This document shows, one piece after another, positions 6,852 through 29,630 of a DNA stretch of 36,563 nt (positions within the stretch are counted from its first letter, which is position 1; each line of letters starts with the position of its first letter). The notes beneath the pieces were generated by a model that saw only the letters and a list, made by a program, of their open reading frames with translations, did no database searches and was not told where the DNA came from. This stretch comes from a virus: positions 1-36,563 of IMG/VR virus record IMGVR_UViG_3300044712_000047; one strand, 5' to 3'. Made by a program: the position numbers and the translations under genes.

Positions 6852-8039
6852 ATGATAACCTACAAACAACTCAAGGGTGCTGTAGCCCTAGCGTCTAATA
6901 CTCCTGGTATGCCTACTGGCTACGGGAACCAAGCAAAGCTTTTAGTCGAGCGTATGCTTCGCCACGGTCTCAAGGTGGCTGCCCTCTCCAACTACGGACT
7001 AGAGGGAGCAAAGTCTGTGCTCAACATTGATGGACAGACAATTCCACACTACCCAAGAGGGCTAACGGCTTATTCCACGGATGTAATGCCAGTCTGGACT
7101 AAAGAGTTCGCCTCGATGCACCCTGGACTCAAGACCGTGCTATTCACGCTCTACGATGTATGGGTTTACAACAACCTCAAGTATGATGACACGATTGTCT
7201 CTTGGGTTCCACTAGATCACATCACGCTACCGCCTGGAGTGCGTGAGTTTCTAATCAGAGAGAATGTCAAGCCAGTCACGATGTCGCCTCACGGTCAGCG
7301 ACAGCTAGAAATGATGGGTATTCAGTCCACTTACATTCCTCACGGCATTGATACTTCGGTCTATAAGCCAACCGCAGAGTTTCAAGGCAAGCCAACCCGT
7401 GAGTTTATGGGAGTCCCAGAGGGAGCTTTCCTAGTCGGTATGGTCGCTGCCAATAAAGCCAACGGTCAGATTCACCGCAAAGCTTTCGCAGAGAACCTAC
7501 TAGCCTTCGCTTTGCACCAGAAGAAGTATCCAGACAGTTACCTCTACATCCACAGCGAGCCGTCTCGTGCCTATAACGGATTCGGTCTCGATGTGCTGAT
7601 TACTATGGCTGGCATCCCAAAGGACAATGTGCTATTCCCTGATCCTTACCAGCTACGCACCGGATACTCCGAAGAAGAGATGGCTGGCTTCTACACGGCT
7701 TTTGATGTCCTACTAAGCACTTCATACGGTGAGGGCTTTGGAATCCCGACTGTGGAGGCTCAGGCGTGCGGTACGAGGGTGATTACGAGCAACTTTGCCG
7801 CCTCTGCCGACCTAGCGTCTCCTGATAGCTGGAAGGTCGAAGGACAGGCGTTCTGGGATGAGCCTCAGTCGTCATTCTTTATGATTCCATCCGTCAACGG
7901 CATCGTGGCAGCTCTTGATAAGGCTTACAATGCTGAGCGTGGCACTTCTCAGCAGGCGATTGACTTTGCCAAGCAGTTTGATGTAGAGAAGGTCTGGGAA
8001 GAAAGCTGGATGCCGTTCCTACGAGAGCTGTATAAGTGA
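6852..8039 (+). CDS. GT-B glycosyltransferase (GT4-like)
   Basis: 395 aa. It starts with the nucleotide-sugar type segment MPTGYGNQAKLL (20-31) and ends with the GT4 donor-site signature near residue 290, SYGEGFGIPTVEAQACG, including the EGFG and the E of VEAQ. It should move a sugar from an activated donor to an acceptor. It is followed with a four-base overlap by a second transferase and then a cytidylyltransferase, so the three form a cassette. Substrate unknown: virion protein (capsid or tail) glycosylation fits its place between capsid and connector genes. No signal peptide, so it acts in the cytoplasm. Confidence 0.85.
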   Translation: MITYKQLKGAVALASNTPGMPTGYGNQAKLLVERMLRHGLKVAALSNYGLEGAKSVLNIDGQTIPHYPRGLTAYSTDVMPVWTKEFASMHPGLKTVLFTLYDVWVYNNLKYDDTIVSWVPLDHITLPPGVREFLIRENVKPVTMSPHGQRQLEMMGIQSTYIPHGIDTSVYKPTAEFQGKPTREFMGVPEGAFLVGMVAANKANGQIHRKAFAENLLAFALHQKKYPDSYLYIHSEPSRAYNGFGLDVLITMAGIPKDNVLFPDPYQLRTGYSEEEMAGFYTAFDVLLSTSYGEGFGIPTVEAQACGTRVITSNFAASADLASPDSWKVEGQAFWDEPQSSFFMIPSVNGIVAALDKAYNAERGTSQQAIDFAKQFDVEKVWEESWMPFLRELYK

Positions 8040-8686
8040 TTCCAGTTCTAGGATTCGCTACCCTTACAAAGTTTGACCTAGCCCAACGCCTAATTGACTC
8101 GATTGACTACCCAGTCGAGCATCTGGTCATTGTCAATAACTCAGGAACAAAGTCTTGGCAACCAACCGTAAGTAAGGAATTTGTAAGGAATGTCTGGCAC
8201 ATCGAAGTCCCACACGGACTCGGTGCTAATGGTGCTTGGAATCTCATTATCAAGTCAACGCCTCACGCTCCTTACTGGGTCATCCCAAATGATGATGCTT
8301 ACTTCGAAGCAGGAGCTTTACAAACCATTGCAGAACAGGTAGATACCCAAGCCTTCAACTTCCTGAAGATTGATCCCAAATGGTCTTGCGTAATTCCAGG
8401 TGAAGGTGCTGTAATGAAGGCAGGGTTATGGGATGAAGCTTTCCACCCAATCTATTTTGACGATGACGAATACGAGTGGAGGATGAACAAACTTGGAGTC
8501 AGATTCAACACCATCAATGCAACAGTCCACCACGACAACTCGTCAACGCTTGCCAGTGGGTATCACGAGCGGAATAATGTTACTTTTTCTCGCAATCAGT
8601 CGCTATTTACAAACAAGAAAGCAGCAGAGGACACAAACATCCGAGGCTGGTCACTCAAAATCAGAAGGGACAACAGATGGGACTAA
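8036..8686 (+). CDS. GT-A type glycosyltransferase
   Basis: 216 aa, GTG start inside the previous stop. HLVIVNNSG near residue 33 is the first strand of a Rossmann-like GT-A fold. WVIPNDDAYF near residues 80-89 gives the metal/nucleotide-binding DD. FDDDEYEWRMNKLGV (around 141-155) resembles the acceptor-side ED/W segment of GT2 enzymes. It is short for GT2 but contains the whole core. Paired with the upstream GT-B enzyme it could build a disaccharide or longer glycan. Specificity cannot be read. The following gene overlaps it by ten bases. Confidence 0.75.
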   Translation: MIPVLGFATLTKFDLAQRLIDSIDYPVEHLVIVNNSGTKSWQPTVSKEFVRNVWHIEVPHGLGANGAWNLIIKSTPHAPYWVIPNDDAYFEAGALQTIAEQVDTQAFNFLKIDPKWSCVIPGEGAVMKAGLWDEAFHPIYFDDDEYEWRMNKLGVRFNTINATVHHDNSSTLASGYHERNNVTFSRNQSLFTNKKAAEDTNIRGWSLKIRRDNRWD

Positions 8687-26360: not shown

Positions 26361-26600
26361 ATGGACTTGGAGCTACTAGCCAAGGCTATGCGAGAGCGAG
26401 CCTTGTTGATAGATGGTGACGAATCGCTGAGCGAGAGCTTGGCAATAGATCAGGTCGCCATAGAGAAAGCAAAAGAAAAGAAGCGTGCACAGGTCGAGAA
26501 CCTGAAGCGTCTTTACTTCAACGCTGGGCGATGGGTAGGCGGAGCCAGAGACCACACCGCCCGTGAAGCCTTTACCAAGATGAAGGCACGAGAGCAGTGA
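26361..26600 (+). CDS. small helical protein before methyltransferase
   Basis: 79 aa, helical and basic: LLAKAMRERALLIDGDES, then EKAKEKKRAQVENLKRLYF and RWVGGARDHTAREAF. GGAGAGAG precedes the ATG. It overlaps the methyltransferase start by four bases (GTGA). No motif recognised. The Lys/Arg face could bind nucleic acid. Confidence 0.6.
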   Translation: MDLELLAKAMRERALLIDGDESLSESLAIDQVAIEKAKEKKRAQVENLKRLYFNAGRWVGGARDHTAREAFTKMKAREQ

Positions 26601-27166
26601 AGATAGGCAGCCTATTCTCAGGCTACGGGGGCTTAGACCTAGCGGTCTCAAATGTCACCGGAGCGACTGTTGCTTGGCATTGTGAATGGGAGTCAGCTCC
26701 CTCAGCCATTCTGGAGAAGCGTTTTCCAGGCGTGCCTAACTTCCACGATGTATCGAAGGTTGACTGGACTCAGGTTGAGCCAGTAGACATTCTCACAGGC
26801 GGGTTTCCCTGCCAAGACCTATCCCTAGCTGGTAAGCGTGCGGGGATGAAAGACGGAACAAGATCAGGACTATGGTCTGAGTTCCACAAAGCAATCGAAA
26901 TTTTGAGACCAAGATTGGTGGTAATTGAAAATGTTAGAGGACTACTCAGCGCAACAGCCCATAGCGACATGGAACCCTGCCCGTGGTGTATGGGAGACAA
27001 CGCAAGTGAACCTCCTTTGCGGGCACTCGGAGCCGTACTTGGAGACTTGGCCGACATCGGGTATAGCAGTAAATGGGTCGGTGTACGAGCTGCCGATGCA
27101 GGTGCACCGCACAACCGATTCCGAATCTTTATCATTGCCTACCCCCAGAGCACAGGAGCCAGGTAG
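26597..27166 (+). CDS. cytosine-5 DNA methyltransferase, motifs I-VIII part
   Basis: 189 aa from GTG. Motif I SLFSGYGGLD (5-14), motif IV GGFPCQDLS with catalytic Cys72, motif VI VIENVRGL (109-116) and motif VIII VRAADAGAPHNRFRIFIIA (163-181) are all intact. The frame ends soon after motif VIII, so the target domain and motifs IX-X are missing; they are found in the next gene, in the +1 frame, overlapping by 236 bases. Two-subunit C5 enzymes (M.AquI, M.EcoHK31I) are a precedent. It likely protects phage DNA from host restriction. Confidence 0.88.
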   Translation: MKIGSLFSGYGGLDLAVSNVTGATVAWHCEWESAPSAILEKRFPGVPNFHDVSKVDWTQVEPVDILTGGFPCQDLSLAGKRAGMKDGTRSGLWSEFHKAIEILRPRLVVIENVRGLLSATAHSDMEPCPWCMGDNASEPPLRALGAVLGDLADIGYSSKWVGVRAADAGAPHNRFRIFIIAYPQSTGAR

Positions 27167-28163
27167 CACCTCGCCTGGATACGGCGACTCGCTGAATGAC
27201 TTTGCTAACCGTGTGACTAAGGGATACGCCCCTAAAGACCTAGAACTATTGCGTTCCCCAACGGCGAGCCAAGGTGAGGGTGGGGCTCTAGGCGAGGAGA
27301 CTGCAAGAGCTAGGGGCAATACCGTTGGCATCCGTGACAACGCCTTGGACATTGCGAAGCTCAATGGGCTACCCGTTTCAAGGGTGGTAGAGAACTTGAT
27401 GCCTACCCCGAACACTATGGATCACCTGCCCGCCAGAACGCCTGAGCAAAAATTGGCTAACAAGGGCAAAGGTGGTTACGCAAATGTCCGTGAGACCGTA
27501 GTAAATGATTTGATGCCTACTCCAAAAGCCTTAGATGGTATCAAGGGAAATCTAAAGACATCTCAGGAGCGAATTGCATCGGGGCATTTTGTTGATTTGA
27601 CAAATGTGGCTATTGACATCAATAAGGAAACTGCTGAGAAAGCATCTGTGAACCTACCAACCCCAACTGCATCAGATTGGAAAGGTGCGAATAATTCTGG
27701 CTCAGGAACCACTAGTTCAAATGGATTGGCTACAAGGATAGACAATTTAGAGACTAATTGGGGCAAGTTCGAGCCAGCTATTCGCCGATGGGAGCAAGTT
27801 CTCGGCAGACCTGCTCCAGCTCCAACTAAGCCAGATGGCAAAGATGGGGCTCACAGGCTCTCTAGTGCCTTTACAGAATGGATGATGGGACTACCGGAGG
27901 GCTGGATTACTGATGTAGGGCTAAGCCGCAATGAAGAGCTAAAAGCGTGTGGCAATGGAGTAGTCCCTCAGCAGGCTGAGATGGCATTGAGGTTCTTGCT
28001 GGAAGGCGTAGAGCTACCGTCAGTTGAGACGGATGTTCAGTTGCCGACCCCAACCGTTAGCGACATCTACACTGGTAATTTGGCAAGCACCCAGCAGAAG
28101 CCTGGTTCAATGCACAGCGTTACTTTGCCTAGGGCAATCAAGATGCTAGGGGCGGAAGAATGA
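26931..28163 (+). CDS. methyltransferase second part with PTP repeats, motif X
   Basis: 410 aa from ATG 26931 (TTG 26925 also possible). The C-terminus carries RRWEQVLGRPAPAP, EWMMGLPEGWITDVG and GNGVVPQQAEMAL, the last being C5-MTase motif X. The long centre has repeats of the form (L/M)PTPxxxD: LMPTPNTMD, LMPTPKALD, LPTPTASD, LPTPTVSD. The N-terminal 79 codons lie opposite the motif VI-VIII region of the previous gene in another frame, yet contain WPTSGIAVNGSVYELP, a pattern known from such phage proteins. It may be a separate subunit or the end of one frameshifted enzyme. Confidence 0.78.
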   Translation: MLEDYSAQQPIATWNPARGVWETTQVNLLCGHSEPYLETWPTSGIAVNGSVYELPMQVHRTTDSESLSLPTPRAQEPGSTSPGYGDSLNDFANRVTKGYAPKDLELLRSPTASQGEGGALGEETARARGNTVGIRDNALDIAKLNGLPVSRVVENLMPTPNTMDHLPARTPEQKLANKGKGGYANVRETVVNDLMPTPKALDGIKGNLKTSQERIASGHFVDLTNVAIDINKETAEKASVNLPTPTASDWKGANNSGSGTTSSNGLATRIDNLETNWGKFEPAIRRWEQVLGRPAPAPTKPDGKDGAHRLSSAFTEWMMGLPEGWITDVGLSRNEELKACGNGVVPQQAEMALRFLLEGVELPSVETDVQLPTPTVSDIYTGNLASTQQKPGSMHSVTLPRAIKMLGAEE

Positions 28164-28942
28164 GCATAGCAGTAATGAACGCCGTGTGGGAGCACTCACG
28201 GGCAGATGGTAGAGCACGGCTAGTGCTACTAGCTATCGCAGATCATCAAGGAGAAATCGGGGCTTGGCCTTCGATTCAAACCCTTGCACGAATGGTCAAC
28301 AGCTCAGAGCGAAGTGTGCAGCGTGACATTCAGTATTTGCAGGAAATTGGTGAGCTGAAGGTCGAAATTCAGAACGCTCCGACCAAAACTCAGTACAAGT
28401 CAAACCTCTACTGGGTTACGCTCCCAGGGGTGACAGCAGGGGTGACAAATGCGACATCAGGGGTGACAGAATTGAACGCAGGGGTGACAGCAGGTGGCGT
28501 ACTAACCCTTATAGAACCATTACTAGAAACTAATAAAGCCCAAAGCGAAGAATTGTTCATTGAATTTTGGAACGCCTATCCTCGAAAGCTGGATAAAGCA
28601 AAAGCATTTAGAGCCTTCCGGTCTGCTCTTAAGCGAGCCAAGTTCGAGGACATCCTCGCTGGCGTGATTGCGTATCGCAATGATCCGAGTCGCAACCCTG
28701 AGTTCACGAAGTACCCCGCATCCTGGCTAAATGCAGACTCTTGGGAGAACGCTGCAACTCCATCAGTTGATTCTGAGGCTACGGAGCGAGCCAGACTACG
28801 CCGTGAGAAGGAGCTGGAAGCCTCTAGGAGCTTTTTGGAGGAGCAGAGAAGGCTATCACTCCAAGTAGCCCCTCCGAAGCTCTGTGAGCACGGCAAGAAC
28901 CTAGCGATGTGTCCACCTTGTGCAAAGAAGCTAAGTGAGTAA
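28160..28942 (+). CDS. replication initiator-like HTH protein
   Basis: 260 aa. Residues 1-90 form a winged helix: PSIQTLARMVNSSERSVQRD with YLQEIGELKV. Residues 88-118 are a GVT-rich linker coded by four identical DNA repeats. The C-terminal part, FWNAYPRKLDKAKAFRAFRS and YPASWLNADSWE, is common in phage initiators of the DnaD/lambda O sort, and it ends with a Cys/His cluster (CEHGKNLAMCPPC). It probably binds its own iterons and recruits the host helicase. No phage helicase or polymerase is present. Confidence 0.8.
   Translation: MSIAVMNAVWEHSRADGRARLVLLAIADHQGEIGAWPSIQTLARMVNSSERSVQRDIQYLQEIGELKVEIQNAPTKTQYKSNLYWVTLPGVTAGVTNATSGVTELNAGVTAGGVLTLIEPLLETNKAQSEELFIEFWNAYPRKLDKAKAFRAFRSALKRAKFEDILAGVIAYRNDPSRNPEFTKYPASWLNADSWENAATPSVDSEATERARLRREKELEASRSFLEEQRRLSLQVAPPKLCEHGKNLAMCPPCAKKLSE
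28425..28489 (+). repeat. four iterons inside initiator gene, putative origin
   Basis: CAGGGGTGACA occurs exactly four times, at 28425, 28437, 28458 and 28479; steps are 12, 21 and 21 bases, the 21 being two helical turns. The codons GGG GTG ACA are the same in every copy. AT-rich DNA follows to about 28570, with TTATAGAACCATTACTAG. This is the arrangement of oriLambda inside gene O. Confidence 0.7.
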
Positions 28943-29357
28943 GCCGTTTTCGCAGGAGCTCTACGACAGAGACGATGCTGCCAAGGAGTTTGTCATTGAC
29001 TACTTCACGATTCGACATGGGTTTGTGGTCTATGTGAATCCTGACCCCTACGGCATTGATCTCATCGTAGAGAACGAGCGTGGCAGATTCGAGCTAGAGG
29101 TGGAGGTGAAGCACAACTGGAAGGGAGACAAATTCCCGTACAAAACCATTCATTTTGCTGCTAGAAAACTCAAGTTTGCGGAGAATCCAGAGCGGGTGAA
29201 CTTCATCATGCTCAATGACGACTGGACATACGGAATGGTGATTGACGGCGAAACATTTGCCAGCTCTCCCGTTATTGTCAAAGACACCATTTACACGACT
29301 CGTGAAAGATTTATTGAGATTCCCGTTGATAAAGGCACACTTCTAAAGCTTTTTTGA
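28935..29357 (+). CDS. PD-(D/E)xK nuclease-like protein
   Basis: 140 aa from GTG overlapping the previous stop. YGIDLIVENERGRFELEVEV leading to K59 gives Asp42 and Glu57-x-Lys59, the spacing of a PD-(D/E)xK site. The C-terminal half has strand-rich segments (RVNFIMLNDDWTYGMVIDG). It could be a resolvase- or restriction-like nuclease; no specific family could be fixed. It lies with replication genes. Confidence 0.65.
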   Translation: MSKPFSQELYDRDDAAKEFVIDYFTIRHGFVVYVNPDPYGIDLIVENERGRFELEVEVKHNWKGDKFPYKTIHFAARKLKFAENPERVNFIMLNDDWTYGMVIDGETFASSPVIVKDTIYTTRERFIEIPVDKGTLLKLF

Positions 29358-29369
29358 TAGCCTTAGCGA

Positions 29370-29630
29370 GTGTGGGAACGAGAAACTTGCGTTCGTTGTG
29401 GTCTCTCGTGGGAGGTCACAAAGAAGCGTGGCAATGACCGAGTGCTTTGCCAGAGCTGTCGTAGCAGAAGAGCTGTGACAGTTCAAAGCGGTGAGTTCAA
29501 GTGCCTTCCGTGGCACGGCAGATTTGCCGAAGATCTAGTTACACCGATTGACGACCTAGGCGAAGAAATGTTGCCTGGCAAGAGAATCTGTGGCAACCTA
29601 GACTGCGTGCTACCCGCACACATAGAGTGA
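29370..29630 (+). CDS. zinc-finger protein with HNH-like end
   Basis: 86 aa from GTG. CVRC (7-10) and CQSC (27-30) form a zinc ribbon; the end, GKRICGNLDCVLPAHIE, is the CG..DCV..HI pattern seen in actinophage HNH-like small proteins. It overlaps the next message region and probably binds DNA or RNA. No complete catalytic HNH is present. Confidence 0.6.
   Translation: MWERETCVRCGLSWEVTKKRGNDRVLCQSCRSRRAVTVQSGEFKCLPWHGRFAEDLVTPIDDLGEEMLPGKRICGNLDCVLPAHIE

Follow-up and report, generated by a model that had tools for sequence, protein, structure and literature searches.

In-gene origins of replication are a known kind, and the iteron plasmids RK2, P1, and F have their origins outside the rep gene. 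In phage lambda and the Stx phages, the origin lies inside gene O (PMC7466680; PMC5043065). Dimers of O bind the lambda iterons, which are near-perfect inverted repeats (PMC5043065), and in Stx phage P27, iteron mutations that leave the O protein unchanged abolish origin function (PMC7466680; PMC5043065). Similarly, phage SPP1 has oriL inside gene 38, where it is bound by gp38 (PMC6316719). The origin of repABC plasmids lies inside the repC coding sequence; the initiator gene alone is a minimal replicon, and replication is lost upon silent mutation of the AT-rich region (PMC3155836). In oriC and RK2, 13-mers form the unwinding element (PMC5043065). Here, we describe viral DNA that very probably serves as a phage replication origin and lies inside the gene for the phage's own initiator, and we propose a mechanism for it.

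A repeat array and an AT-rich tract within an initiator gene

The window, which is the whole stretch of DNA analyzed, comprises 36,563 nt of virus record IMGVR_UViG_3300044712_000047 (IMG/VR, positions 1–36,563), from a virus of bacteria. A gene on the forward strand (28160–28942) encodes a protein of 260 aa with a winged HTH, a disordered linker, and a helical C-terminal domain. Its N terminus matches PF13730 HTH_36 (E = 4.5e-8, 33.2 bits versus a Pfam cut-off of 25), and residues 1–215 match phrog_270, "replication initiation protein" (E = 6e-36); by these matches, the protein is a predicted phage replication initiator of the HTH_36/phrog_270 type.

AlphaFold2 models the winged-helix DNA-binding domain (codons 1–92, 28160–28435, forward strand) confidently over residues 1–90, with helices at 2–12, 17–28, 39–46, and 50–63 and wing strands at 66–69 and 83–86. 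The predicted recognition helix is formed by residues 50–63 (28307–28348, forward strand) and includes R55 (codon 28322–28324). The linker coded by the repeats, residues 94–122, is disordered (pLDDT 32–46), and the modeled C-terminal helical domain is of the EFW..YPRK..K type (28535–28942, forward strand); this domain is also present in initiators with a different N-terminal domain and different repeats. VIA-align gave the winged helix Z of about 8–9 to many winged helices, and the fold comparison returned generic winged helices. Foldseek found no match to the model at E ≤ 0.001, and a PDB search by sequence found no relative. No clear case emerged of a small plasmid with an initiator of this type as its sole replicon, the match in pRA1 being to the C-terminal domain only.

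The 11-mer CAGGGGTGACA occurs in this gene in four exact copies on the forward strand (28425–28435, 28437–28447, 28458–28468, and 28479–28489), at steps of 12, 21, and 21, and nowhere else on either strand of the record. In the frame of the gene, each copy reads (C)CA GGG GTG ACA. A first-pass annotation of the DNA had pointed to this array and to its identical codons; a recount bore out the copies and their steps, and the codons are the same throughout despite the rarity of GGG, which makes up 4% of Gly codons in the main ORFs of the phage. When the same peptide was randomly recoded with synonymous codons, four identical 8-mers arose in 20 of 20,000 trials. The copies had also been placed between the HTH and C-terminal parts of the protein, and AlphaFold2 likewise puts the iteron-coded linker between the winged helix (residues 1–90) and the helical C-terminal part. 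The core motif GGGTGACA is non-palindromic, and no inverted repeats were found in 27500–29500.

As also proposed, an AT-rich stretch follows the iterons directly. The tract, a putative unwinding element, spans 28501–28568 on the forward strand, and positions 28509–28568 have the highest A+T content of all 60-bp windows of the record (72% versus 49% overall). It contains one above-threshold AACCAT box, TAGAACCATTA (28512–28522, forward strand; PWM score 15.4, threshold 8.2), which lies 22 bp beyond iteron 4, the spacing seen most often with GGGTGACA arrays. A weaker box, ACTAACCCTTA (28501–28511, forward strand), precedes the strong box by exactly 11 bp and scores 6.6, below the threshold. Cumulative GC skew, which had been suggested as a check, lent no support to an origin near 28.5 kb: no turning point was seen there, and the skew is uninformative because nearly all genes are on one strand.

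The phage had been described as being without a polymerase or helicase, and we found no polymerase, helicase, primase, or helicase loader in the ~40 ORFs scanned with PHROGs and/or Pfam, some small ORFs falling outside the scan and the record perhaps being incomplete. Upstream of the initiator gene, a C5-cytosine methyltransferase is seemingly split into overlapping ORFs in different frames (26597–27166 and 26925–28163), which match phrog_363 at positions 54–218 and then 258–315; this seems to be a frameshift, a programmed shift, or a sequencing error. Two glycosyltransferase-like genes (6852–8686) directly follow the major head protein gene.

Comparison with described origins

Like the origins of lambda and the Stx phages, the locus has four repeats mid-gene that would bind the initiator; an AT-rich tract adjoins them on the downstream side, and the DNA-binding part of the protein is N-terminal. 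However, its iterons are non-palindromic direct repeats, unlike the inverted repeats of lambda. Lambda O (NC_001416) scored −0.3 bits against an HMM of the window family and is not detectably homologous to it, and the lambda O linker contains no GGGTG and no AACCAT box. No lambda-O family in Pfam matched the window initiator; PHROG groups named "O-like" do match it, a likeness by group name. Membership in the lambda O family is not supported, as neither sequence homology of the DNA-binding domain to lambda O nor inverted-repeat iterons were found. Thus, the first-pass term "lambda-like" fits the layout and, in our reading, the working of the locus, whereas family membership is unsupported because lambda O is not detectably homologous, its iterons are inverted, and it carries no AACCAT box.

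Compared by description, SPP1 differs in having its own helicase and loader and a second origin, oriR (PMC6316719). The repABC plasmids differ as well, since no iterons were found in p42d repC (PMC3155836). The iteron plasmids RK2, P1, and F resemble the locus in having helix-phased direct repeats beside AT-rich repeats that form the unwinding element (PMC5043065), but RK2 has 13-mers rather than 11-bp-phased AACCAT boxes, and the initiator families differ. By analogy, the AACCAT element may resemble the oriC and RK2 13-mers in role. Lastly, the RepA_N initiators (pSK41; PLE RepA, PMC7145576) are winged-helix proteins that bind iterons, as the window initiator presumably does. Their structures 4pt7 and 4pql scored Z of 7.9 and 8.3 among many other winged helices, values that are common for any winged helix, and no sequence match between RepA_N and the window initiator was found.

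Motif arrays in viral genomes

We scanned 2.9 million IMG/VR viral contigs for three copies of GGGTGACA with gaps of 4–34 bases, ignoring the proteins, and added a fixed-spacing scan. ORFs with an N-terminal winged helix homologous to that of the window contained 155 of the 196 GGGTGACA arrays, 105 of 121 arrays of the sister motif GGGTGCAA, and 54 of 70 arrays of the sister motif GGGTGAAC. A permuted control motif formed 51 arrays, none of them (0/51) in homologous wHTH genes. Conversely, 295 of the 297 ORFs of at least 100 aa with a window-type winged helix at the motif loci bear an array. Among divergent array-bearing proteins (<50% identity in the wHTH), 52 of 60 match phrog_270, and 4 of 60 match RP-C weakly. 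As a clean class, GGGTGGACA was rejected as weak: wHTH genes account for only 12 of its 35 arrays. One GGGTGACA array (L137) lies antisense in an open frame of 1096 codons that is not an HTH_36 gene; a neighboring peptide resembles the C terminus of a phage primase.

Copies in the arrays are found in both coding strands and in every permitted frame, with more than one frame used in 254 of 332 arrays. The forward frame in which the motif makes TGA is empty for GGGTGACA and GGGTGAAC, whereas GGGTGCAA, which has no stop there, uses it 86 times.

An AACCAT box downstream of the arrays

A de novo search of the 120 bp after the last iteron, read in gene sense, returned WWKAACCATYA; of 201 non-redundant arrays, 66% have it there, compared with 1.5% in a control stretch further downstream and 3% upstream. 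The copies are spaced 10–12 bp in AT-rich DNA. They occur in all three frames (46/99/53), and genes with at least two copies have them in different frames in 48 of 70 cases. The strand of the box is fixed relative to the gene, being opposite in 3 of 194. The AT-rich part is also under selection at the DNA level, and roughly one-quarter to one-third of the arrays lack the box. With the top A+T window and this conserved phased motif, an AT-rich region adjoins the iterons, where it would act as a putative site of unwinding.

A link between the box and the C-terminal domain was considered and rejected, as several C-terminal types carry the box. It is weak or absent in most loci that have the same C terminus and another N terminus; the presence of the AACCAT element follows the winged-helix module, not any single C-terminal type. 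Separately, in five Arthrobacter phage loci (L161, L162, and L608–L610), the AACC element is a near-perfect repeat, TTGAACCGTCC, with up to four copies including variants.

Residue 55 and iteron specificity

When all N-domain columns were compared with the motif class by mutual information, column 55 ranked first (z = 36, 23, and 18 at 80, 60, and 50% clustering), followed by column 52 (z = 12, 10, and 8). At column 55, GGGTGACA pairs with R in all 35 clusters (50% identity), GGGTGCAA mostly with Y, and GGGTGAAC mostly with K. When the tree was built with the helix columns left out, residue 55 and the motif changed together in six of six supported independent pairs; the Y versus K split (GCAA versus GAAC) has few supported pairs only.

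The same co-variation is seen in Arthrobacter phages, which were chosen by protein similarity and not by motif, with the helix CS[PAEV]RSVQ-X-KLR. Where X is N (Galaxy, Abidatro, Andrew, Renna12, Kuleana, Marchesin, LittleTokyo, and one metagenomic phage), the repeats are mostly GGGGTG[AC]AC. Where X is R (Coral, Amelia, Cote, Orcanus, Juno112, Daob, Basilisk, Kepler, and PhluffyCoco), three of the four repeats read GGGGTG[AC]CA at the same sites and in the same frames, and the first is GGGGTGTCT. One repeat of the Coral group reads GGGTGTCT and falls outside the rule, and the N/R switch separates phage groups that differ elsewhere too. These pairings are strong indirect evidence that each initiator would bind the repeats in its own gene. 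The residue-to-iteron code is an incomplete sketch because the classes were defined by search patterns.

Two further kinds of locus were observed. Vibrio phage 1.036.O (L603) has three AACCATCA boxes and R at the specificity position, and no GGGTG repeats were found in it; its initiator perhaps uses another iteron type. In 11 loci (L022, L037, L042, L046, L053–L057, L060, and L063), the same C-terminal domain is joined to another N-terminal domain, with different peptide repeats in the linker (TENP, AENP, and SSGFP). These probably represent another in-gene iteron type that was swapped together with its DNA-binding domain.

Proposed mechanism and alternatives

In the proposed mechanism, the winged helix of the initiator would bind the four GGGTGACA direct repeats at steps of 12, 21, and 21 bp, and R55 in the recognition helix would read the three variable bases at the end of the iteron. 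The bound initiators would bend the DNA and oligomerize into a nucleoprotein array, which would open the neighboring AT-rich tract and the AACCATTA box or boxes in it, and one strand of the opened tract would probably be captured. The disordered linker and the C-terminal domain may help to recruit the host helicase and replisome. The sequences themselves show the repeats, selection on the DNA of both elements, and the co-variation of residue 55 with the iteron; binding, melting, helicase recruitment, and origin firing are inferred for the window phage.

Iteron systems often combine autoregulation with initiation, and the in-gene repeats might have autoregulation as their role, either alone or alongside initiation. 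If they were operators within the coding sequence by which the initiator keeps its own gene repressed, with the origin elsewhere, binding by the product's own helix would fit equally well. However, the repeats are located some 265 bp into the gene, far from a promoter position, and an AT-rich tract with an 11-bp-phased motif at a set distance fits unwinding rather than repression. We consider repression with an origin elsewhere unlikely, and an origin within the initiator gene the better reading.

The arrays might also be functionless tandem duplications produced by slippage. Most occurrences of the pattern in cellular genomes are plain tandem repeats, with 6 of 106 in wHTH genes (on contigs titled Campylobacter, Methylotenera, Comamonadaceae, Rhizobium, Verrucomicrobiia, and Saccharibacter), and the cellular scan was therefore not used as support. 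In the phage genes, by contrast, exact copies of the 8-mer are separated by differing spacers, the copies switch frame and strand, the permuted control motif never occurs in such genes, and the iterons co-vary with residue 55. Chance or slippage was rejected for the phage genes and is very improbable as their source.

That selection acts on the DNA itself had been claimed from the window, and the codons of relatives had been set beforehand as the test that could refute it. In 27 non-redundant IMG/VR relatives, 101 of 101 GVT repeats are coded GGG GTG ACA, against a background use in their genes of 10.5% for GGG, 27.9% for GTG, and 23% for ACA. The usual iteron step among relatives is 21 bp. 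In four of them (L009, L012, L028, and L035), the last copy is one base off register, so that the peptide is RGDT and not GVT while the DNA is still GGGTGACA. With the motif also read in other frames and from the opposite strand, it is the peptide that is free to vary, and the test thus came out in favor of selection on the DNA. The initiator gene carries several copies of a motif, and it is the DNA, not the peptide, that is conserved in them. A repetitive disordered GVT linker selected for oligomerization or partner binding would suit the regular recurrence of GVT in 7-residue steps in the window family, but it is ruled out for practical purposes by the invariant codons and by the frames and strand that, in other phages, turn the motif into GDx, LSP, CHP, or VTP, with only the stop-making frame avoided.

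Implications for phage replication

Beyond the window, we see about an even chance that one origin design is shared by very many phage initiators, spanning diverse hosts. In this design, an in-gene array of GGGTG-N3 iterons would come first, and a single recognition-helix residue would largely dictate the final three bases of the iteron (R: ACA/CCA; N: AAC/CAC; K: AAC; Y: CAA). An array of WWKAACCATYA phased at 11 bp would come next and serve as a sequence-specific element for unwinding and strand capture. In literature mostly outside subscription journals, we found no description of the GGGTG-N3 motif, the one-residue rule, or the frame-free 11-bp-phased box, and an earlier description is possible.

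Many phage genomes have no mapped origin. As both elements are free of frame, the origin type should be readable from the protein sequence and vice versa. The AACCAT array, being independent of frame, suggests a conserved unwinding element, which the initiator or a host protein would read. If the design holds, the origins of many tailed phages and prophages would be locatable from sequence, with the hosts seen including Actinomycetota, Pseudomonadota, and Campylobacterota.
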